Shown in pieces: positions 63 through 27,400 of a stretch of 64,000 nt of DNA (the first letter of the stretch is position 1; each line of letters begins with the position of its first letter). Made by a program: the position numbers and the translations under genes. Source of the DNA: Mya arenaria (Eukaryota > Mollusca > Bivalvia > Myida > Myidae); NCBI RefSeq assembly GCF_026914265.1, contig NC_069135.1, positions 16,918,406 through 16,982,405 of the forward strand. Direction: 5' to 3'. The notes beneath the pieces are model-generated. The model was given only the letters and a program-made list of their open reading frames with translations. It searched no databases and was not told the origin of the DNA.

Positions 63-901
63 TTATCCGTCAATGGTGCCCAAGGCAGTTGGTGATTTCA
101 TGAAGTCAGACGTCAGTTTGTCTTTATGGAATTGGAAGGTTTTGATTGCAGTCCATTTATTCATACTGGCAAGACTTAATTGCAGCTGTGGTAGTTGGTG
201 TTTGGATTGTTGTGCTGTAGTGAACAACTGGTTCATGTTCCTTTCCTGTGATTTCATCTTTGATTTCATACTGTCCAGCTTGGTCTTTACATCATAGCAT
301 TGTTTCTTGCAAGTATGAAGAATGTCTTCATTAGCTTTCTTGATTCCATTAATTATTGTGACCAGTTCTTTCTCTCTTTTGTCAAAGTATGCTATCAGCT
401 CATCTCTAGCTTGCCTAATTTTCTTAATCTCTTCTGCTGCTTCATCAGAAATTATCTTTAAAGCATTTTCAATGCCTTTCTGAAAGCCTTCTATTGGCCT
501 TGCTTGAAGTCTTGAGCAATGTCTGGAATGTAGTCAATCTTGCAGTTTCTGTGGTTAAGTACGACACAGTCTCCACAGTTTAAAGCATCATGTACTGGAC
601 AGAAGAACTTGATGACTTTACTGGAGTGATGGGGACAAGGCTCTGTACATCCTTGATCCTCATGCTTTGTGGTTGGGTAGAAGGAGGGCATCTTGTCGTT
701 GCCAAGCACCACATGGTTTTGTGTGATACCCAGTTTCCTGTGGACTCTGATGCAGCTTGAGCATAGATACTCTTTGCAGTTGTTACAGAAACCATTTGTG
801 TGAATGTGGCTCCCATCCCTGGTGCATGGTATGCAGTAAATTGTAGCATCAGCTGATGAAATGTCTACATCCTTTGGCCTTTTTCTGCCAGAGACCTCCA
901 T
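63..901 (-). pseudogene. TRIM-like two-B-box, coiled-coil protein, frameshifted
   Basis: The reading frame starts at 901 (first residues MEVSGRKRPKDVD) and runs without introns. Residues about 20-66 form a B-box-1-like zinc module (YCIPC, then CNNC, CSSC and two His). Residues about 88-125 form a B-box 2 (CPHH, CPVH, CGDC, then His/Cys). The frame closes near 491, but the following sequence in another frame (about 490 to 63) continues as a charged coiled coil with Glu/Lys-rich heptads, as expected after B-boxes. One frameshift near 500 therefore separates two plausible halves. The second half stops at 63-65, and no NHL or RING domain is seen. Proteins of this plan (B-box, B-box, coiled coil) form a very large family in bivalves; their partners are mostly unknown. 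It could be a decayed retrocopy, because it is intronless, or a live gene with a sequencing error. It lies outside the duplicated block. Confidence 0.6.
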
Positions 902-1445
902 TATGACTGAAATTAAATAGGGCTGAAGTTTGCTGAGAGCATTTGTGGAAGTTTCATTCGTAGTGATAAATAATATGTATATTTAGAATTAGATACCTGT
1001 GAAATCAAAAGCACATGATCAAGTGTGACTAATATCAATAAAAAGAATTGAATACCCTATTTGTTTATGCCCTTTTTATAAAGATAAGGGGCATATATGT
1101 TTGCAGATGTCTCTGGGTTGGTGGGTCTGTCAGTATGTCGGTCAGTATGTCTGTCAGAAGATCTAAGTTTGTCCACACAATACCTCAAGAATGGTTTGAT
1201 CTAAGACCATGAAACATCACTGGTAAGTTGCCTGTGACCAGTAGACGACCTTATTGTTTTTAAGAACAGTAAGCCAAATTTCACAATCACAGTCAACAGT
1301 CTCATGAAAACTTTGTCGCAGTGGCAATAAATTATGAAAGGTTTGACCTAGCTCTATCAAATTTCAGTGGTAGGTTGCCCTTCAAGAATAGTTCAAACCT
1401 CAGTGGTAAGTTGCCTTTGACCGGCATATACTAGTAACCCCTAAT
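902..1445. other. Non-coding flank with a degenerate dispersed molluscan repeat
   Basis: This is the 5' flank of the TRIM-like frame. At about 1070-1250 it holds a piece of the bivalve repeat family whose end reads 'gcccctttttataaag', followed by GTCTGTCAGTATGTCGG-like runs. The same kind of edge is seen at 5585-5650. No exon was recognised. Confidence 0.4.
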
Positions 1446-4773: not shown

Positions 4774-7700
4774 GTGATGACACCCACCAGATTCCTGTGG
4801 AAAATTTTGAGCAGGCAGATGGAAACTACACCGGCCTGTGGATCCACATTGAGAACTTTATCAACCCGAATGGAGAACTGTCCGAACACCCACCCCTCTA
4901 CTGTCTGGTAATACCATTAGGGCCTTGGTAGAATTGAAGATGAAAAAACAAAAACAGAAATTCTTTGCAGTTTTAATTATGCCCCCCCCCCCACCAGCTC
5001 CCCCACAAGCTTGTCCGAGTGATAACCCAACAATTCCTGGACCTATGTTCATCGAACTTGATTTGAAGGTTGGACCTGATCGGTAGATGACCCATATTGA
5101 TTCTAGGAGTCATTGGGTCAAAGTTCAAGGTCACATTGACCTTTAACACGAAAAGGTTGTCTAAGCTAGAGCGAATGATAACTCAACAAGGCCTGGACCT
5201 ATGGACATCAAACTTTACATGGGATTGGGCCTGATCAGTAGATGACCCCCTTTGATTTAAGTGGTTATCACAACAAAGATCAAGGTCACAGTGACCTTGA
5301 ACTTGAACACAAAAACCTTGTTTGTGTGATAACCTGACCATGCCTGCGCCCATGGCCCTCAAACTTAACATTAAGGTTGGAGGGGTGACCAGTAAATGAT
5401 CCCTGTTGATTTTGAGGTAATAGAGTAAAAGGTCAAGGTCACAATTCATATTTGTCATTAAAATTTACATCATATTTACTTATTCCCTGCTGCTAAAAGA
5501 ATACATGTTTATATGCAAATATCAGTCATCATCTGCACATGATTAAAACCTGTACCTACTATCCTCACACTTTGAATGGTCATTATTATGCCCCCCTTCG
5601 ATGAAGAGGGGTATATTGCTTTGCACATGTCGGTCGGTCGGTCCGTGGGTAGACCAAAGCTTGTCCAAGTACTAACTCAACAATCCCTGGACATATGGTG
5701 ATCAAACTTGAGGTTGGGCCTGACCAGGAGATGACCCCTATTGAATTTCAGGCTCATCGGGTCAAGGTCACAGTGACCTTTGATGGTAAAAGGATTTTAA
5801 AGCTTGTCCGAGTGATAACTCAACAATGCCTAGACCTATGGTCATCAAACTGATATGGAAGTTGGGCCTGACCAGTTGTAAAGTTATCACTTGGACAACC
5901 TTTTACCATTCAAGGTCACTGTGACCTTGATCTTTAGCCCAATGACCCCCAACAACCATAGGGGTCAGCAGGCTAAAGGTCAAGGTCACAGTGACATTGA
6001 ATTGTAAAACGTTGTCCGAGTGATAACTCGACAATGAATGCATCCATAGCCCTCAAACTGGACTTGGGGTTGCGCCTGTCCTGTAGATGACCCCTTATGA
6101 TTTTAGGGTTCATCGGGTCAAAGGTCAAGATCACAGTGACCTTGAACAAAAAAAGCTTGTCTAAGTGATAACTTGACAATGCCTGCACCCATGGCCCTCA
6201 AACTTTCCTCACACTTTGAATGGTCATAATCTTAAAACTGCCTCAACATCATCCAATGTCAGTGACAAATCAGTTGTCATTTCGGTCCATGCATATTTCA
6301 TTCAATCGTCCATATAATCCTGACAACAAGGTGCTCAGAGGGGGCATAATGTTTGACAAACTGTAAATCATCTCTTGTTTTAAAAGGAATCCAATATCAA
6401 TGACAAATCAGCTGTCATTTGGGTCCATGCATTATTTCATTCAATTGTCCAAATATTCCTGACAACATGGCGCTCAAGGGGAAAAATGTTTGACAAACAT
6501 CTCTTGTTATGAGTAAGTTTGCTGGTTTCTTACAAGTTAAGCTCATCTGAATGTACATCTATCAAGCCAAGTTTCATACTTATTGTCAGGGGGCGGGTAA
6601 ATAAATCAGACATTTACTGGAATGTACATGTTATGGATGTATGTCTACCCCCTCTTATTAGGGAGCGGGTGAAAACTATGATGCAGTTGAGCGGTGCCTG
6701 GAATGGATCCATGGAAAGGCAAGACTTGGTGCGCCTAATCGCATACGGAAGGTGTACGAGATTGAGGGCCTTTTCCAGGAGCTGCATGCCCACGTGGGCA
6801 ATCAGGTGTCCAAGGCCTTGTTGATCCAGTCCCTCACATCCTCCGACTGGGACTATGAGCCAAACACCAAGTAAGAGGCATTTAACATTATGGACATTAA
6901 GGTGCTATCTCTGATGGTGAGTAGGACTATTTGCTAAACATCATGGGTATTTAAGTGCTATCTTAGATGGTGAATAGAACTTTGGCATCAAACACCAGTA
7001 ATGGGCATTCAACATCATGGACATTTAAGTGCTATCTTACGATGGTGAATAGAACTTTGGCATCAAACACCAGTAATGGGCATTCAACATCATGGACATT
7101 TAGGTGCTATCTTAGATGGTGAACAGAACTTTGGCATCAAACACCAGTAATGGGCATTCAACATCATGGACATTTAGGTGCTATCTTAGATGGTGAATAG
7201 AACTTTGGCATCAAACACCAGTAATGGGCATTCAACATCAAGGACATTCAGGTGCTATCTTAGATGGTGAATAGAACTTTGGCATCAAACACCAGTAATG
7301 GGCATTCAACATCATGGACATTTAGGTGCTATCTTAGATGGGGAATAGAACTTTGGCATCAAACACCAGTAATGGGCATTCAACATCATGGACATTTAGG
7401 TGCTATCTTAGATGGGGAATAGAACTTTGGCATCAAACACCAGTAATGGGCATTCAACATCATGGACATTCAGGTGCTATCTTAGATGGTGAATAGAACT
7501 TTGGCATCAAACACCAGTAATGGGCATTCAACATCATGGACATTTAGGTGCTATCTTAGATGGGGAATAGAACTTTGGCATCAAACACCAGTAATGGGCA
7601 TTCAACATCATGGACATTTAGGTGCTATCTTAGATGGGGAATATAACTTTGGCATCAAACACCAGTAATGGGCATTCAACATCATGGACATTTAGGTGCT

Positions 7701-10700
7701 ATCTTAGATGGGGAATAGAACTGCCAGCCAAACACCAAGTTAAATTTAGGTCTTAGATGGTGACCGAGCGGGCTTTTGAGTCTTACACCACATAAGCGGC
7801 ATTCTACATAATGGAAGATTAAGGGGCATTCTTAGGTCAGACCTGACTGGGACTATGAATATTATTTTGGGATTATGGTGCTACCCTGAATCAGAACTTA
7901 TTTTGTCTTATGTCTGTAGTGAGTGTTTATGATATATGAAGAGTTATTTCAGTTTCATACATCAACATACTTCAGACTTAATTTATGAGCAAATGTACTA
8001 GCACTTCTATAGGCATGAACCGTTTGGTTCGTTTAGAAATATTGATAAATTGTACGTACATTCTATTGTTCAATATCAATGAACGCAATGCATACTTATA
8101 TCAAGTTGTTTTGTACAGTCTCAGTTAATCAATGGTTTCAGGTGTAAGTACCATGATGAGAAGGAAGTGAAAGACTGCTCCCTGGGAATAGTGAAGAGAT
8201 ATGTGTAAGAATTACTGTTTTTGTTGCCTTGTTATATGGCATTTGATCCAGATCCATTAAATCAGATGTGGATGGGGGGGGTTTAAGTTTATAAACAAAG
8301 ATATGTAAATACAGCGGATGCAAACGAATGGCAAATTGATATTCGGGTAATCGTTTCAATCGAATATTTGAATACCAAAATGTATATTTAAGAAGTTGTA
8401 GTAAAATACTTTTATTCGCTTTTGTAATGCCCAGGATCTTTTTACCCCTCGTTGTTGCCATGACTTGCAATGGACTCAATTTTTCCCAGATCCTCTGTAC
8501 TTCCCCATTTAGATCCCAACAAATAGCAATACATTTTCAATGAGCAAAAAACAGGATTGAATTATTTCAATTCCACAGTGATTATATTTGTAAAATATGG
8601 GAATTAAGATCAGAGAAGGTTGTAACTTCCTGGTGAAATGACGTTACACCAACGTAAGGTTGTTCATGGGACTTGCAGCCTCGTTCTGGGACTGACCTTT
8701 ACTAAATATAATTATGAATAACAAAAACATTGATTTTGATTCATCTATTGTACAACAATATAGGAACTTTATCCTTAAACTTTTAACAATACAGTTACAT
8801 TTCAAAGCACAATATATAAAAACATGGAAAACAGTATATAGCACATAACTAGCAGATGTCATTTATATCATCAAGGCAATTTGAGAAATATTGCCTAGTT
8901 CAATTGGCAGTCAAGGCAACACATTGGTGGAAGGATGAGTCCTTAAACCCTTAATTTACACTGTCATTTAGATGCACAGAAAATAATTAAAATTTGATTG
9001 ATTTTACTTGTTTCATAGCCAGTGATGGTAAAGTTACGGGGACTGGTAAAAGTTCCTGACGATATGTGACATATGACGCTATACTGTTATTATATTCACG
9101 CCTCTGGTATTAGGGGACAATCATTGTAAAACCTAGACAAACAAACAATATACACAACAACACAGTTGTAGGCAAAAGGTTTATTATTTTATTTTTTCAA
9201 CAAAAAACATTGAATATTCAAATTTTTGATTTTGACATTCGAAAAACCAATCTTTCAATCAAATATTCATTTGCATTCAATTAAATATTCATTTGCATCC
9301 CTAGTAAATACAAATTTAGTATATGGGTCTCTCTTAAATAATTGTGTGTCACATGGCAAATAGAATCCAAGTGTCCTTATTTGAAGTAAATAAAGATGTA
9401 TCTCTGCTAAGTTTGCCTTTACTCGTATAAATATTTTTTATATCACAATAATATCAATATCACTGAGTGTATTCTATGACATGATGTTACTGAAATCTGT
9501 CTGACTCTTTCTGCCAATTCCTTATTTTATGTGGGCCCTTGAAGCATGGTAGTCACATAAGAGATTATGTTGTCACGTGTCTTTCAATAAGTTTTAAATG
9601 ACTTGTTATAGACTTGTTACAGAGTCTTTAAACATGAAATACACATTGATCATGGCCACTCAAAAGGCCTCTATTGATTTTTGGGCCAAAATGTCAAAGG
9701 TAAAGTTCATGGTGACCTTTAACGCCACCTGCAGGCCACACATCTGATTCCCTGAGTTGCTTATACTCCTTTTTATCTACATCTATATTCTCCAGGTATG
9801 CCATTTCTGACTCACTGTGTAAGGATTATGACGTTCAGCTGACAAGGGCACACATACCTGCACGTGAGGACACAGGCCGTGTTACAGTCCTGTCCCCCTC
9901 CAGCATGCCTGTGTGCAATAAACAGGAGGCTAGACTTGCACCAAAGAATGACACCATCTTCGTTGCCAAAGTATGTAGATAGTGGTAGAATATGACTTAT
10001 CTTCAGCTTTCCACTTTGATGTCAAAAAGTAATATTTTGATCTGTGTCACCATAAATTTGTTTTCACTTACAAGTGCGAAATAACCTTAATTTTATCTTG
10101 AAACATACTATAAATCATGGTAATGGTATAAAATCATAAAATATCAAACCTGTCATAGAGTTTATTGGTTTTAGAGGATGAGGTTTGCCCCTCAAAAGGG
10201 ACACCAGTAGAGGCTGCTACCCAGGAGGTTGACTTGAGAGTGATTTATACCTGTAGCCATCTTTACAATCCAGCTAAAGTAACCTAGTATAGACTTTTGG
10301 CTAAAGCAATGAACATTTGCAAAAGATTGGTGAAACATAATGTCATGTGATTATAAAAAATATAAGTGTGCTCAAGATTTAACATTTGATTACAGAAGCA
10401 GATTCCTGAAACACAGGACTATACAGCGCTCCGTAGACCAAATAATCCTCAAGGTACATTTGTAGGATGAAAAATGGTTTTGAATTTGACTTTTCAAAGT
10501 AAAAGGAGAGCTATACTACTCACCCTAGCGTCACACCTTGGTTGGGGTTTTATATGTAAGCACCTCTAAGTCATTATTTCAGCAAATACATCATGTATTG
10601 CATTGAAATGTTTGAATTGTATTCCCAACTATCCAACCCACTTAGTTTATGAAGTAAAATAACACTTATTTGAATAAAATGCTAATTATAGACCTTTGTT

Positions 10701-13700
10701 GTTTGTCTTAGAAATTTTGGTAAAGGTTTTGCATTACTTGATGTATTACATTGAGACTTTATACAATGGTACTCAACCATTCAGCCTACCTACAACCACA
10801 TTTAAGTCAATATCTCAACACATTTATTGCATTAAACTTGAGACATTTGTTCCCAACTATCCAACTGATTTAATTAATCAAGTTAGATTACTCTATCTTG
10901 CATAAAATGCAAATATTTGTCATTTATTGTTTGACATAGAATTTCTGGCTAAGGTTTTAGTTAATATATCAGAAACTGATTGATGTATTGCATTGAGACT
11001 TTATACAACGGTACTCAACCACCCAACCTACTTGAATAACCAAGTGAGATAACTATATTTGGCAAATAATGGCCCTGTATTATTGGACAAAGAAATTCTG
11101 CTTAAAGTTTTGCATGTCACCACATTTAAGTCAGCAAATACAGCATGTATTGCATTGAAACAACTTTAGACACAGGTTCCCAACCATTCAACCTTCTTAA
11201 TTAATACATTTAAATAACTATATCTTGCATATAATTTAAATTCTGCCCCTTTATTTTTCGACTTTGAAATTCTGTTTAAAGATTTGCACATAAGCGCATA
11301 TAAATCAATAACTCACAACTATATTGTGTATTGCATTGAACTTTTTCACAATCAAGTATGGTGACTCTATCTTGCATATGATGCAAAGTTCCCCCTTTAA
11401 TTTTTTACTTAGAAATTCCAGTTAATCTAATTTTACAGTGATCCATGCAAGTTTCACTTTCACTTTGCAATCCTTAAACTCAAAAGAAGCAGAACAGTTG
11501 ACTGGGCTGAGCTTGTATTTATATTTTCCAATTAGCCCTGATTTAGTAGTGGCAAACACTTTTAATGGTAGGCTAGAGGGGATATAAATAAATAATTCCA
11601 GTATGATCTGCTCCAGCATAAGATTAAGTAGACACTTTTTGTGTCACGAGAACAGAGTGAAGCAATTTAAAGTATGCAGCAATATATTTAATTTAATAAT
11701 AGTATCATTGATGTATTGTAGATTCTATGTTTTTTTACAGATCACGAAAATGTGTCCTTTTGCAATTGTCTCTTATGAATTATTGTATGTGTATACTTAA
11801 TGTTTACAGCTTCCAATTTTCTCATGGGGAATAGTATACAGGAGGACTATGCTCCCAGGGGCAGGGGACTCACTGTTGGAATGCGTGGTGAGAAACTACC
11901 CTTTTTTACTTAATGGGATTCTACTTAAAAGAGCCATTGTGTATATTATCTGTACTTTTGGTTCAATGCTCACTGTTGGAATGCGTGGTGAGAAACTACC
12001 CTTTTTTACTTAATGGGATTCTACTTAAAAGAGCCATTGTGTATATTATCTGTACTTTTGGTTCAATGCTTTTATTATGCTTTTATTATTAGGTAATGAC
12101 CCTTTTATTTCTAAATAGTGTGGTGTATGTCCACTTTTTCTGAGCAACTGCCTACTTGAATTCAATGTGACCTAACTTAAAGTGGAGATGCGCATATTAT
12201 CAGCACATTCCACTTTGATGATTTTTATGGACGCTTTTTAATTTCTATATAATGTGTTATAATAATAGCTTCTTTTGTATTCATTCTATTTCCTTGTAAC
12301 TTGAATTCAATGAAACTGTTTGGAAAGCTCTGCTTCATAAAATTGAAACTTTGAATTAGTTGAAGAAAAACTAGAAGTATTTCTTTATCATTCTGTACTT
12401 TCCGTTAAAATATAAACCCTGTGGGGGAGCATCCATCGTTTACAACGATCACTTTGTTTTTTAGCAACAATTGTCTGTAGACATAACCTTAATATATCTC
12501 AATCATCCTATATGTAGTATCTACAATAATGCTCTATTCCAGACATGAGCCTCCAGGAGCCAAGGCCTGTAGGAAGAGGGGCTGCACCTTCTTGTCACGT
12601 TGCTGCCCCTCCTACCATACTTCAGGTAGGCCTGGGCTTGCTGTAGGATTACGATATGTGTAAATGTGTGTTTAAATGTGCAGTATATTAGTATCATAGT
12701 ATCATGAATATGATTCACAATTTTGCCAAAATCATCAATCACATTGATAAGGATGTAAGGTACTGTCAAGCAGGGTGTCAACTGTAGAAAAAATGTTACT
12801 GGTAATCATATAAGGTTCCATGTCATCAACCATCAAAGTCTTACCAAAGCCTGTACCCTTCTGACAACTGCTAGTAATGGACGCAAAGATTAAAATTTTA
12901 CGGACAGGAGTATATGGAACTGATGCTTATGCTTCAAATCTTTGCTATTTCAATGTAAGAGGCCAAGTTCCAATACAGCTTTTATCTCTATGGGTATATT
13001 TGTTTTCAGGGTAACCCAGGCCTACCAATACAGCAGCCCCTTGGTCTTGGGCGGGGAATGATAGCCTGCCCTTCGCTGTCTCAGAGGATGTCACAACCCC
13101 CAGGAATGCCGGCTCACCAGTATTATGGTGATGATGGTGATGATGGTGATGATGATGATGATGATGTTGATGATATGCCCCAAGTAGCTCCTGTCAAGCT
13201 TCCCTCACGGATAATACCTGCCGTTGCCATCCCAGCCAATCAAACCTCTAAACCCATTTCCCAGAATTCCAACCCTGGCAATGTGCCACGTCAGTCAGCA
13301 GTAAATGGTGCAGGGGATGATCCATTCTTTGGAGGTTAGTTAATAGCTTGGAGTTCAGGAAAAGGTCCACAAAAAAACATTTGAATAATGAATATATTTA
13401 TTGAATTGTTCCGTTTTTAGTTCATGTACTTCACGATAGGTGATAAAAACATTTCTTTAAAAAACATTAACGATTACCTGTTTATTTAGATATGAAAAAT
13501 ATATAAGTAACAATTGTCTAACTGTATATTTTCTTCAACAGCTGTGGGAGTCGGAAGACGAGGGATTCTGGAATTGTTGATGACGCAGGGGAGAAGGGCA
13601 GGGGTGCCTGTGGGACGGGGGTATGCCCCTCCTGACTGGGGTAGGTTTGACAAGGATTTTGACTGAGGGATCGGATAATAAATTCAGTTTGAGTAAAGAA

Positions 13701-13877
13701 GAAATGATTTCAACAAAAATATCAAGAAAATACTTACTTTTTAAAAAAAAGTTGAAAAAAAGTTGAAACCTGGCTAAGTGCCTAAAGACATGGTGAAGAA
13801 ATGAGATTACAATGTTCAATTTTGTGTTTTCAGTTGATGATGGCAGCCTTGGTCCCATCCGGAGACCTGACATCTGA
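4774..13877 (+). CDS. MAEL: Maelstrom, C-terminal ten exons (copy 1)
   Basis: Ten exons join in phase: 4774-4907, 6662-6870, 8142-8204, 9796-9970, 10396-10453, 11810-11887, 12543-12625, 13010-13334, 13542-13640, 13834-13877 (stop TGA), about 420 residues. The first five encode most of the MAEL domain, an RNase H-like fold. Anchors from the family are the conserved His of DDTHQIP, Cys of PPLYC, and His and Cys of KYHDEKEVKDC, plus SDWDYEPNTK and YAISDSLCKDYDVQLTRAHIP. These align by eye with vertebrate MAEL (for example WDYSSNTRCKWHEE and QLTEAHVP). The C-terminal part is Gly/Arg/Pro-rich with RGRG and RGILELL motifs and an Asp-rich run in the 13010 exon. Maelstrom is a germline factor of piRNA-guided transposon silencing. 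The N-terminal HMG box and first part of the MAEL domain are not in the window; they should lie to the left. All ten exons are open. The exon ending at 11887 has a duplicated donor 100 bp downstream. Confidence 0.88.
4978..6508. repeat. Nested dispersed molluscan repeats with 'ttatgcccc' ends (copy 1)
   Basis: This intronic block has left edges 'ttatgccccc' at about 4978 and again at about 5587. It has two related tails, 'gggggcataatgtttgac' near 6340 and 'aaaaatgtttgacaaac' near 6485, each ending in atctcttgtt. The inverted edges (ttatgccccc / gggggcataa) suggest one non-autonomous element inserted in a related one. The interior is a pile of modules with 'gtccgagtgataactcaac' and palindromic aaggtcacagtgacctt. 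No coding capacity was seen. The superfamily was not determined. Confidence 0.65.
5283..5297. promoter_or_regulatory. Perfect inverted AGGTCA site, 3-bp spacer
   Basis: AGGTCACAGTGACCT matches the consensus oestrogen-response-type palindrome (IR3) exactly. Two more perfect sites lie in the same repeat block at 5765-5779 (same sequence) and 5913-5927 (spacer CTG). Near matches occur at about 5983 and 6126. The sites are part of a dispersed repeat inside a MAEL intron. Regulatory use is an inference. Confidence 0.45.
6860..7735. repeat. 74-bp minisatellite seeded on a MAEL splice donor (copy 1)
   Basis: About eleven units of 74 bp, each with 'gcatcaaacaccagtaatgg', 'gcattcaacatcatggac' and 'ggtgctatcttagatgg'. 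The first, more diverged unit includes the last ten bases of the MAEL exon and its donor (caaacaccaa|gtaagaggca), followed by ttaacattatggacatt. So the array looks amplified from the exon/intron boundary itself. Each unit carries a donor-like CA|GTAATG. A final unit near 7724 (gccaaacaccaagttaa) is again closer to the exon. Copy 2 has about two fewer units. Confidence 0.9.
7736..9795. other. MAEL intron sequence around the exon at 8142
   Basis: Apart from the 63-bp exon at 8142-8204 this is AT-rich intron. A possible element spans about 8315-9301: its left edge ggatgcaaacgaat and the inverse of its right edge (attcatttgcatccctag) resemble each other, and AATATTC-rich arms follow. No target duplication could be fixed, so this remains tentative. 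No other exon was seen. Confidence 0.3.
10454..11809. repeat. Degenerate tandem sequence in a MAEL intron (copy 1)
   Basis: Loosely repeated blocks of about 190-240 bp share 'tgtattgcattgaaa', 'cccaactatccaac', 'taactatatcttgcat' and 'gacatagaaattctg'. They recur at about 10590, 10750, 10850, 10990, 11150 and 11330. They look like an old, diverged tandem array rather than coding sequence. In copy 2 the array is interrupted by the insertion at 40922-42278. Confidence 0.6.
11869..12068. repeat. 100-bp direct duplication over an exon end and donor (copy 1 only)
   Basis: Positions 11869-11968 and 11969-12068 are essentially identical. The unit begins inside the MAEL exon (ctcactgttggaatgcgtg) and includes its donor (gtgaga) and 80 bp of intron. 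Copy 2 has a single unit at 43461-43560. Use of the second donor would add 100 nt and shift the frame. Confidence 0.9.
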
Positions 13878-16380
13878 TCTGAGAATGTTCACCGTTGGTT
13901 TTCTGACAAAGTGGAATGGTTGATACCGCTACAAGTTATAAAAGCAGTGGTCGTCCTCATTGGACAATTGTTTTTTGTTTTTCTTTCAATTAAGATCTAA
14001 TTACTATTCATACAAGTGACTTTCAGTATTAGATGGGACATTTATTTTGGTTTCATTAGTTTGATGAGTCCATGGTGATTTGAATCAATCAAACTGGAAC
14101 ACTGTTCTAGAGAGATTACAAGTATATGTTTTGATTTTTAAATGTGAAATGGTGAAAAGTGTTTTATGGATCAGTTGTATCACAAGTAAAGGAAGCCTAT
14201 GTGAATACTTTTGTCTGCTCTTACTCAATTGGTCTCTTGGTATTGGAAAACCTGATTGGCCAGTGTAGTCAAAACATTATGCTTTATGTACCTTGTGATT
14301 TGGGCGAACCATGTTTAATAAGGTGAAATATAGCACTGATTTTGAACAAAAAAAATTCAATCAAAGTTTTATGAATAGATCGTGCGATTCCTGTAAGCAT
14401 AGTTATTGGTGTCTTGATTTCGATGGATGATAAAAGTTAGAAGTTGTCAGTTAGTTGTATGAAAATCACACAACTTAGTCGAATCTATTAGATTAAGAAT
14501 ATTCATTACAACAAAAATATGTTGTCTCTGAGGGAATATGAACCACTGGAGCTGATGGTGTGTATATGCAAGGATTATTAAACCATGGGTAGGATATCCT
14601 TTGGTTTCATAACAACAGTCTTATTAAATTGATTTTTTCCCATAAAGTCTATTAAAAAGCAGTCAGACTTCGAAGTAATGTGAGATATTCATAACATTTT
14701 ACCTAAGTTTTGATTTGGAGATGGGGACTCTTTGCTTAAGATATACTTTTTTGTGGGATAACATGATATGCAAGACTGGGATGGATAAAGTTACAAAATC
14801 TGACAGTGCCATGTTTTAAAGCGTATTCATATATTTTGTTATTGTTTGTTTTATTTTGTTATTAGTAAACTATAAATCAAGGTATGATTAGTTTGATGTT
14901 TGTTGTTACAAAAATAAACGTAGTCAACGTCCTGTTTATTTCAACATTTTCATACAATGTTATTTGCAAAAGTGTTTTTTCTACTTTTGTCAAAAATTGT
15001 GTAGTTTGTAACACTTTTAAGAATATGCATGTCTTAAAACTAATAGATACACACATACTCATAACATCATGTATATCTCCTGTAGATGTTTCTGCATTTA
15101 TTGATTAATTTGGACTTAAAAATATTTGAAAGGATTTCAACCTGCAGCCATACTCTTTATTACTTCACTGGACAATCTTTTCCAATGATGTACATGCATT
15201 TAAGTGCTAAATAAGCAGTAAATATTTGGTACACAAACTTACCACTATATGTACCGGTAAATAGCTCATGTTGTTGATATTATTTTTACATACTTTCAAT
15301 TAATAAAACGCAAAATCTTATTTTTCTTCATGTTTATTTACGACACCAAAAATAGATGTATTTGTTTAATCCTAGAGAAGAGTTTAGTTGAGACAGTGGA
15401 GTAATTACTTTGTTAAATTATTTTTACATCTAAAAATATATGTAACGAACTAGAAGTAGAATTGTATAATAATTATTTGATCAGAAGTTATTAATCTGGA
15501 AATGGGAAATCCTAAGGTGCTTGTAGAAGACAATGCAGTTAAAGACCTTGACCATCTCACCCAATCAGCAATTACGCACCTAAATCAGGCACCTGAGTAA
15601 AAAAATCTTATATTTGCAATTTATTGAAAAATATTTTTCAAAATTCTGCTATAAACAATTTGTGAAAGTAGCGTTTCTGCTGTGATGGATTCCTAACCAG
15701 TTGAAACCATTTGAAATCTTACTGCTATTCCTTCAGTTAAGTGACAGCACATGTCAAAATAAAGAGAGTGGATTAAAAAAGTCATCAATTTATGCTAATT
15801 TTCATATTGAAAATATTCGGAAAATTGTACACAGCTACATTTTGCAGTGCATTTCTATTAAAAAAATATGTACATGTAAAAAAAAGTATGTTCAAAGGTC
15901 AAGATCAACCCCAAAGATATTCAAAATTGTTGCAGGTACGGTAAAGTTATGTATGTGTTCTTTACTGTAGCAAGACAGTATGTCAAATGGTCATAACTAT
16001 GGTAATCTAAGGAGAATATTACCATTGCTAGAAAACTAAGGATTTTGATTAGTCCAAAATTAAATGCTATTGCTTTAAAAGAACATCAGATAATAATGGT
16101 ATATGTCGTCGAAGGAGACTATTGGTTTGCAAAACTGTACAAATGGTTCAAATTTAGTTTCAAATGTAAGAAAGTTTGTCATCAACATATCATGTGATGA
16201 TTGTCCAACCAACAAAACTAAACAGTAAGTCAATTTTGTATTTTAGTATTACCCTTTTTCCTGCAGAATTTAAGATTGTTTTTTCAAGTTTCTTTCAACA
16301 ACCAAAGTTTTAGAAGCTTCATTCAATTTTGTCATGCTGTTAACATGTCATTTAGCTTAAGCAAGTCTTGCTCAGCTGAA
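13878..16380. other. MAEL 3' region and intergenic sequence (copy 1)
   Basis: The sequence after the MAEL stop contains a possible polyadenylation signal AATAAA at 14913-14918, about 1.04 kb downstream, in a T-rich context; this would be the 3' untranslated region. The rest is AT-rich and non-coding. No convincing exon was found. Copy 2 carries the 4.6-kb insertion about 450 bp downstream of the stop, inside this presumed untranslated region. Confidence 0.4.
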
Positions 16381-16389
16381 ATATGGGTG

Positions 16390-16735
16390 ACTTATTGGTC
16401 AATAGTTTTTACAATTGGTCAGCTGCAGCGAGTTTTGCTCAGGTCAGCTAAAATAAGGTTGATTTATTGGTCAAGATTGATTATAATGGCTCAGCTTCAG
16501 CCAGTCATGGTTGGAAGGTTGTGCTTATAATTCAAGTGGTGAAAGCGAAACGGTTCTATCTTCTTCTTTATTGAATGTCACTTAGAAACTTTTCGCATTC
16601 ACCCCTCGAATTGCTGTTTAACAAGTGATAGCACTGAAAAATGGTGTTCCTAGACAAGCACAAAACCGGTCGTAAGTCTGTCTCCAACTTGAGACGCCTA
16701 CCAGTGGCTGCTCGAAATTATTTTGTGTCAGAGGT
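16390..16735 (+). promoter_or_regulatory. Candidate promoter with CCAAT boxes and a short first exon (copy 1)
   Basis: Three inverted CCAAT boxes (ATTGGTC at about 16394, 16414 and 16467) lie upstream of an ATG at 16641. That ATG opens a 31-codon frame (begins MVFLDKHKTGRKS, then RRLPVAARNYFVSE) ending at a good donor, CAGAG|GTAACT, near 16734. From 16641 to the donor the two copies look identical, while the flanks differ, which is compatible with constraint. No downstream exon was identified and the protein is not recognised. It could be the start of an unknown plus-strand gene or lncRNA, or chance. Confidence 0.25.
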
Positions 16736-17029
16736 AACTTTGGGCTGCAACATTAGATATGTGCCCTAGCGCTCAGAACCTATTGGTTATGATTTTATTG
16801 TGACAAGAGTGGACTTCTGACGCCATACACTTATTGACTTATAAAAACAACAAGCAAATTCGTTGAATTGATATCCCCCGCCTGATTGGGCTAAGTCAAG
16901 GAATGGAAATCAATTGTTGATGAAATATATATATGAGTTTGAGATTGATTGCAACTGTTTGAATTAAAAAGAAAAATTGTATATAATGTAACAATTAGAA
17001 TTGACCAAGAAACCTAGTTTATGACTCAA

Positions 17030-18065
17030 TGTTACCCAGTTCTGAACTAATCTAAGATTTCATCAAGGCAAACATTCTGATAAAGTTTCATGAAGATTGA
17101 TCCAGATATATTGCAAAAAATATAGCCTCTAGAGTGTCCACAAGGTTTTTTTTTAAGATTTGACCCAGTGACCTCATTTTTGACCCCACATGACCTACTA
17201 GTTTCAAACTATTCCAAGATTTCATCGAGGCATTCTGATTAAGTTTCTTGGAAATTAAAGCAGATGTATTGCCTCTAGAGTGTTCCCAAGATTTCTGTAA
17301 GATATAACCTAGTGACCTAGTTTTTGACCCATATGACCCACTTTTAAAATGCAGTCAAAATTTAACCCAAGAGAACATCTGACCATGTTTGAACATAATA
17401 TGACCAATCACCACCATAAAATAGTTTTGGACAAAATTTTTGAAATATTTGACCTAGTGACATAATTTCTTATCACATGTGACCCAGTTTAAAACATGTC
17501 AAAGAGTTCATCAAGTTTCATGAATATAAGACCATACATATTGCCTCAAATGTGTTTCAAAGATTTTTCTAAGATTTGACCTAGTGACCTAATTTTTGAC
17601 CCCATGTGCCCCACTTTTACAAGCGGTCCATATTTCAACAAGGGGTACATCATGACCAAGTTTGAACATAATCGGACCAATCATTTCCATTCTGGCCAAA
17701 AAAATTCTAAGATTTGACCTTGTGACCTAATTTTCGATTATGTGACGCAGTTTTAAATAAGTCCAAGAATTCATCAAGGAAAACATTCTGATTAAGTTTT
17801 ATGAATATTTGACCATGTATAATGCCTCTGGTATGTTCCAAAGATTTTTCTAAGATTAGACCTAGTGACCTAGTTTTTGACACCATGTGACCCAATTTTA
17901 AAAGTTGTCGAGATTTGATCAAGGGGAACATTCTGATCAAGTTTGAACAGTTTCTGATCAATGCCTACCAAGATATGGTACCGGACAGACGGACAGAAGG
18001 ACAGAATGACGGAGAGACAACGCCAAAACAATTTTGGTTTGGACCATCCATGAGAGACGGACCTT
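17030..18065. repeat. Dispersed 'gacctagtgacc' molluscan repeat block (copy 1)
   Basis: Several diverged modules each contain 'aagatttgacctagtgac', 'tttttgaccccatgtgaccc', 'tcatcaaggggtacatc' and 'gatatggtaccggacaga'. The block ends in the hairpin cctattttcttgtgaaatagg. It is non-coding and lies between the two convergent genes. Copy 2 carries about 245 bp more, equal to one extra module at about 53880-54125. Confidence 0.7.
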
Positions 18066-21000
18066 GAACCTATTTTCTTGTGAAATAGGGTTATCATTCT
18101 TTGGCTAAAAACAGTTGACCTGGGGTGAAAATATTGTGCCAAGAATTACCCATGCAAGCACACAAGGCTTAAGGCATTTTTTTGCATGGTTGTACCTATT
18201 GTTTGATACATCATTGCTGACAAGTTTCTTCTTGTTTAGGGACACCACACTTTTGATAAAAACACTTGTTTGGCTATGATGTAGTGCTGTTAAATCTAAT
18301 GTGGTATGGACCAAACATTATTATTGATCGAGAATTCTAGGGTATGTTGTCAAATAACCTACAAGTACTCATGTTTAGAAGGATGTGCTAAAACCTGGTA
18401 CCCAGTATTGCCCTGTATCATGTATCAACATCAGATTTTGATATCAGGCCTCAGGCATTATTGGGTTATGTGAGGCTGTCATATTATCAGATGAAGAAAC
18501 TTCCAGTATCACATGATATGTATCGCTTATTGAGAAATACACAAGTAATTATTCCTATGTTCTATTATTTTCTATAAGAAACCCATTTTTAAGATACAAA
18601 AACATACAACAATACTCATTTGAGGTCATTTAATTCAAAAAGAGTTGAGTTGAAAACATAATGCACATATAATGAGCAGTATGTGAAATTGATGTGTATA
18701 TAGTTGTGAAATAGTTATTCAAAAGATCCTTGCACAGTAACTACAACTACTAACTGTCCATGTTTAAGCACTAATATAAAATAAGCCAATGCATAGAGCA
18801 GAAGGGACAGATTGGAACAGAACATAAAGCATTGCAATGATGCACTTCAAGCAAAAACGCAGTAAATCTTATTCTATTGTAAAAATGAATTTGCTCAGAA
18901 TGATTGACTATTGCACATTTATTGTGTGCGTGTACAAATTGAATTGTCAGCTTATACCATAACATAAACAAGAAATTGAATTGATATTAGCTTATACCAT
19001 AACTTGTAGACAAGTGTCAACTCTGCAGAAAACTGAGAAATTAAATTGGCCATAATTGCCATGCTTTCTGTAAGATACTCAACAATTATGTCAACTTACA
19101 GCATGCACATGTACAGTTTATTGTGTTTAACACAAGTGTCACATAAAATTATGTCCCCTAACATAAGCAGGAATGGATTTTTTTCTAAAAGGAAGACTGT
19201 AGCTGTAAAAAAGAAAACAATGAAATATATAATATTCATAATACATTATACATATATACAATTTCTTCAGGTTTTGTGATACCAAAATGATGGTGTGCTT
19301 AATGAATGAATGATTTAGTACTATACATGGTAAATATACTATTCATTAAATATACTAAATTTCTAAGTTGCCTGAGATTCAACACATATTCTCAAGATGG
19401 AATGACAAATCTACAAGTTCATTATTAATTGACAAGCTTGAATGAGAACACATTGTGCAAGTAGATATAGTACTGGCAAGACACTTTTGGTGGCCAATAA
19501 AAGATAAATTTATCAATTTAATTCCTTCATATTTCAAGTTCAGCATTTCAACTCATTGAGTTCTAGGTTTGAGATCAAACATTTTATGTGGTTATGTTCA
19601 TTTCAAAACTATTACTAGTCCCTGTTTAATATAACAAAAGCAATGCCTATAATTGTCTGTTGTTGTTTTTTCAGTAAGAAGGGGTTTGACTTAACAATTA
19701 TTAAAGCCAAAATTAAGGACGCTGCTACCACAAGTGCATATAGTTTCTGGCACCATGTGTTCTAAGTTGCATCCCAATATCTTAAATGGTTGATGGACAA
19801 GGTTTAATGTCACCGACTTAGAAAAGTGTGTGCCCAGACTGGGGATCAAAACCATGTCCCTCTGCTTACAAGCCAGGTGCTCTACCAACTGAGCTTACCC
19901 GCCTGCATTTCTCACATACTCTCTGATGTGTGGGAGTCAGAACTTTGACAAAGCTTTTGTAGACAGATAATGCAACACCAATACCATCCAAATACTATGA
20001 CTACTATTTTTCAAAAACAGATGAGCAATATTTGAAAATTGTGTGTGTGACAATATGAGGTCATGTAACAAACTGCATGAAACAGGTTTTTAGGACAACC
20101 TTCATTTTGAACTTAGTCAGCAAAGTACATTAGTAGCATTTAGTGAATTTATGACTAGGAATATGACATGGAATCAGAGTTTTTAAACACACTTACAAAC
20201 TATTTCCAAAAAATTGTTTGTAAAACTAAAATAAAAATCTAGATGTCCCTAAACATACATGTATTTATAAACTATTGTATTGTTGCATGACAGTCATATA
20301 GTCAGTACATTATTCTTTTGGCAAAATCATTCAAATTCTTAAACAAAGTTTAAATCTCTACTCTTACTAGGATTTGTACAACACGCTGTTAACACATAAA
20401 TAGATTCATAAATATTCTGCCCCCATTTCATGGAATTTATACATAGTTGATGAAAACATGTACTTACAGTGGTGTGAAGTTTTACATGTCAATTAAAACT
20501 AAAGGAAATTGCAGGAGTTCATTCTTTACAAACTTCTGTGTTAAGTATTATTAAACACATTATAGAAATAAATATATTAAATGCAAGTAGTATTAAAGTA
20601 AAATGAGGAATTAAAGTGACATCAAAGTCATAGCACTGGAACAATAGACATTTGTAGAGAGGGGATTCAACAGACATTGTTATTATGCAGGTTAAATAGT
20701 ACACTGTATATGCACATTCAATATGGTGGGGATGGCACACATCAGTGGAAGTGTTCAATGTGCAAATGACACCAGTGTATCATGTTTAAACAATTCAGGA
20801 ATAAATGAAATTAATAAGCTAAGAAGTTTTAAACAAATCGGAGAATCTAATCTAATAAACTACACAATGAAACTACTGATGGATTCTAATTAATAACAAT
20901 ATATGTGAATGCTTAATGCATAGTAAGTGTGAGTGGTGAATATATTGCAGTGCAAGTTGCCTTGAGGTATGGAGACATTATACGTTTAATATGTACATCT

Positions 21001-21448
21001 ATATGTTTGTAAGAAGTTTATGAACATAAATGAATACATTCAAAATATTTGTCATAAATGATAACATATCTATGAAATAAATGTTTAACAGTGCAAGCAA
21101 GACCTCAATTCATTATCCACATAACAATATAACTGTTCTCTCCAAATGTAAATAAACAACTTACAAAATAATGTAACACATTATATAACATGATATGTAT
21201 TTTAATGACAAAATGGAATCCTTTAAACTGTTTGATTGATATTATAAAACCTTAATGTATATAATGAACATCGCATACATTTACAATTCTTACTAACAAT
21301 ATGATATTTACAATATAAAAATAGTTAACTATACTACATTAAATGTAAGTACATGGCTTCATAGTTAACAATATGGAATGTAGCATTCTGAAATGATGAC
21401 ATATAAAATCGTACAGTATTCATTTGCCCTTAGCATTGAGGTGGTTAT
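18066..21448. other. AT-rich intergenic or receptor 3'-untranslated sequence (copy 1)
   Basis: This lies downstream (on the minus strand) of the receptor stop at 21449. It has no exon-like reading frame and no clear gene boundary. It contains the tRNA-like short element at 19683-19905. Part of it is probably the receptor's 3' untranslated region, but no polyadenylation signal could be assigned with confidence. Copy 2 (54366-57788) is closely similar and has one extra 41-bp tandem unit near 55255-55330. Confidence 0.4.
19683..19905 (-). repeat. tRNA-derived SINE-like element (copy 1)
   Basis: On the minus strand from about 19899 the sequence reads as a tRNA head: gcgggtaagctcagttgg, then tagagcacctggcttgtaag, then a B-box-like ggttttgatcccc. 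The A and B box spacing fits a tRNA-type RNA polymerase III promoter. The anticodon stem pairs poorly and a non-tRNA body follows, so this is a SINE-like element rather than a tRNA gene. The same copy occurs at 56016-56238. Confidence 0.6.
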
Positions 21449-24400
21449 TTATAGATCAGTGACAGATCGAGGTTTATAAAGTGGTCTAGGGGCCGGGACC
21501 GGGGCACCACTTTTGTCGAACTTTGAGCGCTCATCATTGTATTCCCCGTACCCTTTCCTGTCATCATGGAAACTTTGGTCGTCTGGCTCGTCATAATTGG
21601 TCGCTCCTCGACCTTGATCATCATATTTGTCATCATATCTAATAAAGAAGTAAAAAAACATGTGATTTATTATTTGCATATTTCTATAAAAAATGTTTGA
21701 AAAAAATATCAACACATAATTTTTTTTAATTAAGCTCTATGTTTTTATCATATGATTTTGCTTATCTAATCTTTCTGTCTCAACAATTCATACCTTTCTT
21801 TAGAAAAATAGCGTAAATGTTTAAAGCAAAGAATTTTGGTTAAGACTTTCAAAAACAGGTCAGATGATAATATACATAATACTGCAAGCAAACTGCCTCG
21901 TACCTATCTCTGTCTTTCCTAGCATAACCTCTGTCATCATAGTCGTCATGACGATCATCATCATGATCATCTCGGTAAGAGTCCCTGTCATTATCATCTC
22001 GGTATGAATCACGATCATTGTCACGATAATAGTCTCTATCATTATCCCGATTATAATCGTCCCTATATGAGTCTCTGTTGTAATCCGAATTCCTGTAATC
22101 GTCATATTTTCCATCTCTGTCCGCATCATCGCGAAGGTATTCCCTTTCTTTTTCATCACCATAGTCATCATAGCTGAAATAAAAACATATAAGGGTATTG
22201 AGAACATATTTTTCACTGAATTAATCATTAGCTTTGCCTTAGCTTTTAACAGCTTGCTTGCAAATTATGAGTTTGGTTCCTGTTAAAATAAAAATTTTCT
22301 TCTATATTTTTATTTGTAAAACAAAAGAATGTTATTTTTTTACAAAAGAATTTATCTTCTATAATACTTGTGTGCTCATGGACTTTTACATGTATGAATA
22401 TTTACAATTTTTAAATAAATGTGTTTTGATACATATTTACATAAGAGTGTTAGTAAACAAAGAAAACAGAATATGAATGGAACACTTACTGATCTTCCTT
22501 GTATCTTTTTCTAAAAAAGAAATAAAAGTTGTTTGAAATAAGAGTGTTGGATAAATTTACATGAATTTTAATGACATGCTTTACTCAAAATAGATCACTC
22601 TAACATCATGAGAGTCCACGGTAAATACCTCATGAACAACTGAAGGTTGGTCTCAACATGAATTCTATTATTGGAAGAGCTCTATAAACCTTATTTCTGG
22701 ACATTCTTTCCTTTAATTAAGATTCCTGTAGCATGTTTTACGTTGTTTGTTTTATTGTGATGGTTTAAAGTGATTTTCACGTTATTAGGGCAATAATACT
22801 AAAAAAAGGATGTGTGAAATGTGAACCAAATGTTTGTAACTGATAAAACAGCAATAGTTTTAGTTAGGCCATATAGTTAATAATTATAAAAAAAATATAA
22901 GAGAAAATGCTCTATTTTTCCATGATATAGTCATATGGCCTTTGACCTCTAAGCATGACCTTGACCTTGAACCAATCTGATTGCAACATGCACTCTAAAA
23001 ATCTTCTCAATATGGGATATACATTTCTGGGATTTTGATCTCTTTTTGTGACCTTAAACTTGAACCAAGGGTGGCAACATAAAATCTGTGGTGAAGTCCC
23101 TTTAATTATTGTGATAATTCACAAATGATTAAAATAAATAATGATGTCACAATCTGAACCTTGGGAAACTGGCAAATATATAAAAATTATAAAAAAAAGA
23201 ACGTTGCGATATTAAAACAATCTACAGCATCCAAGTCATATCATATATTGCTGAATTGGTAGGTGAATGTCACAAAGATAATCTACAGCATCCAAGTCAA
23301 ATCAGATATTGTTGAATTGGTAGGTGAATTTCACAAAGATAATCTACAGCATCCAAGTCATATCAGATATTGCTGAATTGGTAGGTGAATTTCACAAAGA
23401 TAATCTACAGCATCCAAGTCAAATCAGATATTGTTGAATTGGTAGGTGAATTTCACAAAGATAATCTACAGCATCCAAGTCAAATCAGATATTGTTGAAT
23501 TGGTAGGTGAATTTCACAAAGATAATCTACAGCATCCAAGTCATATCATATATTGCTGAATTGGTAGGTGAATTTCACAAAGATAATCTACAGCATCCAA
23601 GTCAAATCAGATATTGTTGAATTGGTAGGTGAATTTCACAAAGATAATCTACAGCATCCAAGTCATATCAGATATTGCTGAATTGGTAGGTGAATTTCAC
23701 AAAGATAATCTACAGCATCCAAGTCAAATCAGATATTGTTGAATTGGTAGGTGAATTTCACAAAGATAATCTACAGCATCCAAGTCAAATCAGATATTGT
23801 TGAATTGGTAGTTGAATTTCACAAAGATAATCTACAGCATCCAAGTCAAATCAGATATTGTTGAATTGGTAGGTGAATTTCACAAAGATAATCTACAGCA
23901 TCCAAGTCATATCATATATTGTTGAATTGGTAGGTGAATTTCACAAAAATAATCTCCAGCATCCAAGTCATATCATATATTATTAAATTGGTTGGTGACT
24001 ATTACATGGACACTCTACAGCATTGAAGTAATATCAGATATTGTTGAATTAGTAGGTGACTTTCATATCAACAATCTTACCTATCAAAATCCTCATCGCT
24101 ATCACGGTACATTTTTTCATGCTCAGACTTCTTGGCTAGAAATAGAAATTGAAAATGTATATAATACAAGATAGACAAAATAAGCTTATAAACACATTGC
24201 AATAAGTTTATAAACACAACGCTGAATAAGAAAAAAATGTTTTACATAATAGTAGTTCAGTTATATTATTGCCAACAGTAAATGAACAATAAGAAAAATC
24301 ATATTTTTTTATTCTATTTACTATTTATTACCAGATACCGTAAAATGCATAACTTTGAGCTTGGAAAAGAAATGTAAGAACACTGGAGATTGCTTCTATC

Positions 24401-27400
24401 ATGGTTATTTAGAAAAGGTCAGTGGTACAGCAGCTCTTTAAGTGCATATGCATGGAAATAAGCCTCATATGTAAGGAAAGTGGTGTCATATGAAAGGATA
24501 ATGGTCTCATATGTATAGATAGTGGTGTCATATGTATGGAAAGTGGTCTCATATGTATATATAGTGACCTCATATGTATGGAAAGTGGTCTCATATGTAT
24601 AAATAGTGGTCTCATATGTATAGATAGTGGTCTCATATGTATGGAAAGTGGTCTCATATGCATTGATAGTGGTCTCATATGTATGGATAGTGGTCTCATA
24701 TGCATTGATAGTGGTCTCATATGTATGGAAAGTGGTCTCATATGCATTGATAGTGGTCTCATATGTATGGAAAGTGGTCTCATATGCATTGATAGTGGTC
24801 TCATATGTATGGAAAGTGGTCTCATATGTATGGCTAGTGGTCTCATATGTATAGAAAGTGGTCTCATATGTATAGATAGTGATCTCATATGCATTGATAG
24901 TGGTCTCATATGTATGGAAAGTGGTCTCATATGCATTGATAGTGGTCTCATATGTATGGCTAGTGGTCTCATATGTATGGAAAGTGGTCTCATATGCATT
25001 GATAGTGGTCTCATATGTATAGAAAGTGGTCTCATATGTATGGAAAGTGGTCTCATATGTATGGCTAGTGGTCTCATATGTATAGATAGTGATCTCATAT
25101 GCATTGATAGTGGTCTCATATGTATAGAAAGTGGTCTCATATGTATGGAAAGTGGTCTCATATGCATTGATAGTGGTCTCATATGTATGGAAAGTGGTCT
25201 CATATGCATTGATAGTGGTCTCATATGCATTGATAGTGGTCTCATATGTATGGAAAGTGGTCTCATATGCATTGTTAGTGGTCTCATATGTATGGAAAGT
25301 GGTCTCATATGTATAGATAGTGATCTCATATGCATTGATAGTGGTCTCATATGTATAGAAAGTGGTCTCATATGTATGGAAAGTGGTCTCATATGCATTG
25401 ATAGTGGTCTCATATGCATTGTTAGTGGTCTCATATGTATGGAAAGTGGTCTCATATGCATTGTTAGTGGTCTCATATGTATGGAAAGTGGTCTCATATG
25501 TATAGATAGTGATCTCATATGCATTGATAGTGGTCTCATATGTATAGAAAGTGGTCTCATATGTATGGAAAGTGGTCTCATATGTATGGCTAGTGGTCTC
25601 ATATGTATGGCTAGTGGTCTCATATGTATAGAAAGTGGTCTCATATGTATAGATAGTGGTCTCATATGCATTGATAGTGGTCTCATATGTATGGAAAGTT
25701 GTCTTGTATGCATTGATAGTGGTCTCATATGTATGGAAAGTGGTCTCATATGCATTGATAGTGGTCTCATATGTATGGAAAGTGGTCTCATATGCATGGA
25801 TAGTGGTCTCATATGCATTGTTAGTGGTCTCATATGTATGGAAAGTGGTCTCATATGCATTGATAGTGGTCTCATATGTATGGAAAGTGGTCTCATATAC
25901 ATTGATAGTGGTCTCATATGTATGGAAAGTGGTCTCATATGCATGGATAGTGGTCTCATATGCATTGTTAGTGGTCTCATATGTATGGAAAGTGGTCTCA
26001 TATGCATTGATAGTGATCTCATATGTATGGAAAGTGGTCTCATATGTATAGATAGTGATCTCATATGCATTGATAGTGGTCTCATATGTATAGAAAGTGG
26101 TCTCATATGTATGGAAAGTGGTCTCATATGTATGGATAGTGGTCTCATATGCATTGTTAGTGGTCTCATATGTATGGAAAGTGGTCTCATATGCATTGTT
26201 AGTGGTCTCATATGTATGGAAAGTGGTCTCATATGTATAGATAGTGATCTCATATGCATTGATAGTGGTCTCATATGTATAGAAAGTGGTCTCATATGTA
26301 TGGAAAGTGGTCTCATATGTATGGCTAGTGGTCTCATATGTATAGATAGTGATCTCATATGCATTGATAGTGGTCTCATATGTATAGATAGTGGTCTCAT
26401 ATGTATGGAAAGTGGTCTCATATGCATTGATAGTGGTCTCATATGCATTGTTAGTGGTCTCATATGTATGGAAAGTGGTCTCATATGCATTGTTAGTGGT
26501 CTCATATGTATGGAAAGTGGTCTCATATGTATAGATAGTGATCTCATATGCATTGATAGTGGTCTCATATGTATAGAAAGTGGTCTCATATGTATGGAAA
26601 GTGGTCTCATATGTATGGAAAGTGGTCTCATAATATGCATTGATAGTGGTCTCATATGTATGGAAAGTGGTCTCATATGCATTGATAGTGGTCTCATATG
26701 TATGGAAAGTGGTCTTCCTCTTACCTTTTGCATCCCTTGGAGTTTTGGGTTTCTCTTGCACCCGCGGGTCCTGTTTTCTCCAGCGATGCATAAGGTAGAT
26801 CCACACAGCTGCTCCAATTAACAGCACTCCAGCCACCAGTATGCCAATAAACCAACCATAATTGGACCCAATGGCCCGGGCAGCAGCTGAAAGGGTAATA
26901 TCACAATGAATGTACGGCTAGATATCTTTAGATATTTTTTCATCTTATATATTAACAGTTTTATTATACTGTAATCAACACACTTTATTAAACCTGACTG
27001 TATAACTTTCCAACAATCTAAGTACACTTAATTGAACCTGACTTTGTTAATATCCTAAAGCTTAAAGCTGCACTCTCACAGATATCATTTTTACAACTTT
27101 TTTTTATTTTTTGTCTTGGAAAAAGCAATTTTTTGCGTAAATATCTGCAAACCAATGATATTAAATTGCTGACAAAAAATCAGATCGTAGATTTTCATAT
27201 TTCCGTTCGATGGCTTAAACTGTTACTAACGGTTTAAGAAAAATGCATAAAACATCCATTTTTGAACTTAAATATAAAAATCTGCGAACTATTTTTTGTC
27301 AGCAGTCTTATATAACTGGTTTCCATGGATTTTCGCAAAAATTGGCTCGTTCCAAGACAAAAAAAAAAGTTGTCAAAATGTTCAATCTGTGAGAGTGCAG

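Follow-up and report, generated by a model that had tools for sequence, protein, structure and literature searches.

What makes a tandem array begin at a 5' splice donor? The question is raised by a 64-kb stretch of the Mya arenaria genome (C14:16918406-16982405, in a genome of 1.216 Gb and 18 contigs), which we call the window and in which all positions without a contig prefix are counted. Here the 3' part of the Maelstrom gene MAEL (+ strand) lies tail to tail with the 3' part of a receptor gene carrying fn3 domains (- strand), and an original prediction, made from the letters alone, held that four arrays in their introns touch a 5' splice site. All four contacts are real, with array starts within about 20 bp of the donor (-10, -19, +9 and +15). 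In both MAEL arrays the repeated unit contains the end of the exon together with its donor, and units of this kind also occur at other genes. Most likely the arrays are intronic minisatellites of an ordinary type, and a tandem duplication across an exon-intron junction seeded some of them, with the exon setting the border.

Comparing the window with itself revealed two blocks of about 95-99% identity over their main pieces: block A (about 2.3-32 kb), which holds the two gene parts, and block B (32.7-64 kb), which is a second copy of it. Because the window consists of two copies of one block, we count four arrays rather than eight, and block B provides no independent evidence. The blocks are either paralogous copies or haplotypes, and do not stand for individuals; exons of the MAEL domain match at C14:16905355, upstream of the window, and at C14:17091316, about 186 kb apart. 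Exon borders here and at the other loci were called by eye from open frames and splice consensus. When joined, the MAEL exons match the Maelstrom domain at 1.9e-14 and the receptor exons match fn3 at 7.5e-14.

MAEL array units copy the exon end and its donor

The first array follows a MAEL exon at 6662-6870 (+ strand), which is recognized by its open frame, splice consensus and Maelstrom domain and whose donor, GTAAGA, begins at 6871. The array has a 74-bp period and spans 6861-7722 on the same strand (6937-7722 in Tandem Repeats Finder, TRF), with a diverged first unit that starts within the exon tail. Gapped alignment carries the unit similarity 10 nt into the exon, placing the start at -10 from the first intron base, and 16 of 21 exon bases match at the exact 74-bp offset. 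Later units consist of a copy of the exon tail followed by a weakened donor, GTAATG. Additionally, two exact relics of the exon end lie behind the array at 7726-7858 (+ strand): AGCCAAACACCAAGT at 7726-7740, which follows the last full unit and retains 15 bases of the exon tail together with GT, and GACTGGGACTATGA at 7845, which comprises 14 bases of the exon end.

The second case is simpler. A MAEL exon at 11810-11887 (+ strand) has its donor, GTGAGA, at 11888, and an exact 100-bp x2 duplication occupies 11869-12070 on the same strand. Its unit starts 19 nt inside the exon (-19) and is made of 19 nt of exon, all of which match (19/19), the donor and 81 nt of intron. In block B the same segment (around 43459) is single-copy, which preserves the exact state without the duplication, and reading the two blocks against each other places CT at both breakpoints. 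In the frame that we assigned to this exon, use of the next donor would bring in a stop codon. Unit number thus varies between blocks A and B at both MAEL sites, from two copies to one for the 100-bp segment and from 10.6 to 8.6 units (TRF) for the 74-bp array, whose block B copy lies at 37301-37937 (+ strand).

A fifth, degenerate array had also been proposed to begin soon after a MAEL donor, at 10454-11809 in intron 4. We rejected it as an array, as it has no TRF entry and no consistent period. The best single period in this intron, 327 bp, reaches an intron-wide identity of 33%, and the one 100-bp block with 71% identity begins 400 bp after the donor.

Donor-containing units occur at other genes

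We searched the genome for the donor word AGGTAAGT occurring twice with 40-70 bases between, and read the 5' flanks of the clusters. Among the matches listed (to C1:46.5 Mb), there were 11 clusters, of which eight were tandem; those at C1:1983833, 22467103 and 46412668 were dropped as non-tandem by eye. A 92-bp array, L072, was added from the list of single words, making nine arrays. Three of the nine begin at the donor of a coding exon. L072, with its 92-bp period, adjoins a BRCA1-like BRCT exon that it matches at 82 of 90 positions; the best PDB match of this exon is 7.8e-8, with Pfam BRCT at 0.009 only. L077 follows a 63-codon open exon with a 52-bp period and an exon match of 39/43, and L078 follows a short exon with a period of about 16 bp, its array starting with the donor itself. 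Family searches with the L077 and L078 exons gave no trustworthy match.

The other six arrays of this sample lie away from a coding donor. One is in a peptidase S51 gene (L071; 9e-19), some hundreds of bases behind the presumed donor, another (L074) begins about 150 bp behind a donor, and the remaining four have no exon visible in the flank. A further example came from L043, a locus fetched solely for its fn3 match, where a 31-bp x6 array matches the exon end at 19 of 19 positions. The first extra unit carries a stop codon in the exon frame at L072 and L077, and use of the next donor would shift the frame at L043; these copies are therefore not ordinary coding sequence.

Exon tail, a real donor or both are thus present in the units of the two MAEL arrays and of L043, L072, L077 and L078 (the last from the donor onward), which amounts to at least six donors in one genome with periods of 16-100 bp. 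The expectation that the pattern would recur elsewhere in the genome is borne out by the coding-donor arrays at L043, L072, L077 and L078, but most sampled arrays outside the window start away from donors.

The receptor arrays begin inside the intron

The two receptor arrays are built differently. The exon at 24081-24136 (- strand) has its donor, GTAAGA, at 24080, and the 61-bp array (23219-24065, - strand) starts at +15 nt by local alignment. Likewise, the exon encoding the transmembrane segment (26725-26886, - strand) has its GTAAGA donor at 26724, and the 21-bp array (24464-26715, - strand) starts at +9 nt. The latter agrees with the predicted distance of about 10 bases, whereas the former had been described as directly after the donor. 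Neither array yielded a copy of the exon end, with junction-copy scores of 5 (21 bp) and 7 (61 bp) against shuffled means of 8.4 and 8.2. They are arrays beside a donor, without an exon-containing unit of the kind found in human factor VII (F7), to which we return below. Their unit numbers also differ between blocks (TRF): the 61-bp array has 13.9 units in block A and 14.9 in block B (59520-60427, - strand), and the 21-bp array has 53.5 and 56.0 double units, respectively (block B copy at 60826-63182, - strand). Open frames of 800 aa run across the 21-bp array, but, 21 being divisible by 3, they occupy several frames, and we did not take them as coding.

A proposed junction-crossing origin for donor-spanning arrays

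We propose that tandem duplications would arise at many places and that some of them would cross an exon edge. After such an event splicing could continue from the original, exon-nearest donor, and the further copies of exon tail and donor would become intron, free to expand, decay and be homogenised. Selection would keep the exon single-copy. Where an array lies near a donor, this constraint would give it a sharp end at the exon edge, and it would look donor-started without any special process. On this account the upstream donor is presumably the only one used in these arrays, and selection presumably sets their border. The receptor arrays may have arisen just inside the intron, or may have lost an exon part. 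At an acceptor, the corresponding arrangement would require splicing to take the last of several acceptors, and may be less tolerated.

Several observations support this account. Units with exon tail and donor are found at both MAEL sites and at the exons of L043, L072 and L077, and at L078 the array starts with the donor itself. The exact relics behind the 74-bp MAEL array, the stop codons or frame shift in the first extra units at L072, L077 and L043, and an acceptor-spanning array (L102, described below) fit as well. The 100-bp segment is known in its states before and after duplication, and the unit numbers of the 74-, 61- and 21-bp arrays and of the 100-bp duplication differ between blocks A and B. 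In F7, only the most upstream of the repeated donors is normally used (PMC6627357).

Several observations weigh against it. Use of the upstream donor in this species is a putative reading of the sequence, and the lack of an exon copy in the receptor arrays leaves two of the four named arrays to be accounted for by chance or by sequence loss. Proximity to donors in the window is a further point. In the 16 introns that we read in block A, four of six arrays with a TRF score of at least 80 lie within 30 bp of a donor, and when six arrays were placed at random, with exon overlap of up to 20 bp permitted, at least four of six fell within this distance in 0.03% of placements (P = 0.0003, post hoc). 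The locus, the distance and the score cut-off were all chosen after viewing the data, and the count covers arrays in introns of known structure, which excludes those at 1468, 4561 and 5016. The original prediction had left out the other two of the six arrays, which lie far from a donor: a 44-bp array in a receptor intron (27417-27843, - strand), a counter-example at 261 bp, and a 22-bp x2 array at 1049 bp. In a sample not selected by splice word, made up of the window and the fn3 loci, arrays touch donors five times and acceptors never (p = 0.06), with the window itself having been picked for its donor arrays. Finally, distinct arrays are about threefold more frequent per word for the donor word, at eight per 1398 words, than for a reversed control word, at six per 3260 (p = 0.04).

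A donor-tied process, chance and selection as alternatives

Such figures would be expected if a mutational process tied to donors, through R-loops or through slippage favoured by GTAAGT-like sequence, started arrays there, as the original prediction had suggested. We consider this explanation unlikely. Besides the four window arrays within 30 bp and the excess of arrays per donor word, it can draw on near copies, which are present at 2773 of 36574 places for the donor word (7.6%) and at 1946 of 57093 for the reversed control (3.4%), with long arrays dominating both counts. It can also draw on the three of nine donor-word arrays at coding donors. However, these arrays were selected by a donor word, which favours donor positions, and without two arrays at coding donors the comparison between words falls to six against six (p = 0.20). 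A second donor word, AGGTGAGT, has a pair count close to that of its reversed control (1531 vs 1498, as counts of pairs only). It gave three arrays among the matches listed (to C1:29.9 Mb), and neither of the two that were readable starts at a donor; the end of the third, L099, lies beyond the fetched sequence.

The control for the first word was its reversal, TGAATGGA, with matches listed for C1 and, as far as 6.07 Mb, for C2. We left out a 4-bp microsatellite, the duplicate loci C1:12798644 and C2:3800095 and four non-tandem pairs. Six arrays were fetched, and 10 of their 12 ends were readable, the far end of L081 and one end of L087 lying beyond the fetched sequence. Among these listed matches and readable ends, none of the six starts at a donor, and the difference from the three of nine coding-donor arrays of the donor word gives p = 0.23. 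L081 was considered as a control-word array at a donor and set aside, since its 15-bp period is open for 274 aa in the exon frame and was treated as a coding repeat. This repeat (C1:11274893; duplicate at C1:12798644) is probably coding, being open for at least 274 aa (NGKTV/NGKTE), and carries GGTAAG in every unit.

An array was also found at an acceptor. A search with an acceptor word gave about seven arrays among many non-tandem pairs (matches listed on C1, C2 and C3 to 19.2 Mb). Six were fetched and five were readable, the end of L101 lying beyond the fetched sequence. Among these listed matches, one of the five readable arrays spans an acceptor: at L102 (C2:17683900-17684850), a 50-bp array runs across the acceptor of a RAI1/DXO-like exon (RAI1, 1.8e-6) and matches the exon head at 18 of 23 positions. 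Here the word used for the search falls within the exon-derived portion of the unit rather than at the acceptor. Hence the duplication process is not confined to donors, and both exon edges can be copied.

The two exon edges were also compared in other ways. A junction-copy test on 41 exons was positive at three donors and no acceptor (p = 0.24), and all three positives were known beforehand. Six of the 30 fn3 loci were passed over because their predicted splice sites were weak, and the script excluded one more; none of the 23 script-found fn3 exons was positive, and exons L043b and L062b were added by hand because their arrays had already been seen. Among the AGGTAAGT matches listed, no array was seen to end at an acceptor (the end of L090 lies beyond the fetched sequence), and in the four arrays with a visible exon the next exon is about 100-315 bp away by eye. 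At L062 (C16:7506137-7509364), two arrays of 30 and 42 bp share one intron, and the second ends 47 bp before the acceptor. A script that looked for exons on both strands at array edges of L071-L105 found the L072 donor and one untrusted weak candidate (L074, other strand) and nothing else, but it is strict and missed L077, L078 and L102, so that it lends weak support to absence. The fetched loci overlap, and their array totals give no density. A donor bias of arrays is possible.

Chance in an array-rich locus appears quite improbable as the whole explanation. With very many windows to choose from, the four contacts in this one could be a lucky cluster of independent arrays: the window holds 21 arrays with a period of at least 10 and a TRF score of at least 80, two of the four named arrays have nothing in common with the exon, and the finding was selected for its oddness. 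Chance nevertheless leaves the exon tail and donor in the units at MAEL, L043, L072 and L077 unexplained. That donor ladders are kept by selection for splicing regulation, as extra U1 sites, decoys or sources of alternative isoforms, is highly implausible: visible copies in L043, L072 and L077 do retain full-strength donors, which in L043 was not a selection criterion, but the search that yielded L072 and L077 used intact donor words, which builds intactness into the sample, while the 74-bp MAEL units hold only GTAATG, the 100-bp duplication is missing from block B and unit numbers drift.

Relation to known systems

Donor-spanning arrays, which we attribute to junction-crossing duplication, are of a kind already known, from human F7 and, for duplication across a junction, from the potato RNA-dependent RNA polymerase (RdRp) gene. 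In intron 7 of F7, 37-bp repeats lie at the 5' splice site and the most upstream donor alone is normally used (PMC6627357). As in the clam, the number of tandem repeats is variable, the real donor lies in the first repeat and copies follow downstream. That case concerns one human gene with splicing data; the present set, known from sequence, comprises no fewer than six donors of a single genome. The source named by the review for donor use in F7 intron 7 is reportedly Borensztajn et al. 2006.

In the potato RdRp gene, a tandem duplication across an intron-exon boundary (PMC4974935) likewise includes a pre-existing splice junction and takes over its signals. There the acceptor was crossed and a new intron was made, whereas here it is mostly the donor, in many copies and within an existing intron; L102 is our nearest case. 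In Drosophila, novel introns have arisen by tandem duplication of coding sequence (PMC2891723), and duplicated coding sequence beside splice sites became intron, as here. Those introns occupy new positions, whereas the ones studied here are read as existing, from one genome alone. Intron 1 of sea bream MSTN-2 carries a repeat of about 150 bp at its 5' end (PMC3045353), which is similarly polymorphic in length and placed on the donor side; it has one or two copies, and the portion available contains no statement that the repeat includes the exon end. The units described here hold intron sequence besides the exon tail, and in this they differ from the AGGT model of intron gain by tandem duplication, where an exonic segment is duplicated and the new intron arises within an exon. 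A search of titles and abstract openings found no paper that surveys tandem arrays relative to splice donors across a whole genome, which does not exclude that one exists.

Other features of the sampled loci

Within the window, a MAEL exon at 13010-13334 contains a GAT run encoding poly-Asp, and a cytoplasmic exon of the receptor (21903-22173) contains a coding repeat of 27 bp with many Arg, Asp and Tyr residues. Open frames at 63-982 (- strand) resemble what we take to be a B-box/TRIM-type protein.

A kinase family was tried as a further exon sample and proved of little use, since its best matches are mostly long single open frames with many near-identical copies. Fifteen of these loci (L019, L020, L022-L028, L030-L033, L035 and L038) carry an open frame with a kinase domain (PF00069), of up to about 920 aa, and each has a 60-bp array together with a 23-bp x2 array, spaced alike in all of them. 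They are perhaps copies of a multi-copy mobile element carrying a kinase-like gene.

Implications

What may be new in these arrays is how often they recur in one genome. A stronger claim, which we advance only tentatively, is that minisatellites are repeatedly seeded at exon-intron junctions, and at donors in particular, with a real bias of donors over acceptors and with perhaps one intron in 100 (a guess from few cases) holding a ladder of several identical full-strength donors beside its exon. Such a bias would follow because extra downstream donors are tolerated and extra upstream acceptors are not. If donor ladders are rare, the arrays are neat but ordinary minisatellites. If junctions do seed them repeatedly, the genome would amount to a natural experiment, on a large scale, in how 5' splice sites are chosen. 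The rule that the exon-nearest donor is chosen is stated in the cited review for one human gene (PMC6627357); were ladders common, RNA reads from a single species could test it among equal 5' splice sites. Common ladders would also illustrate how, in a simple manner, introns can lengthen and sequence derived from exons can turn into intron.

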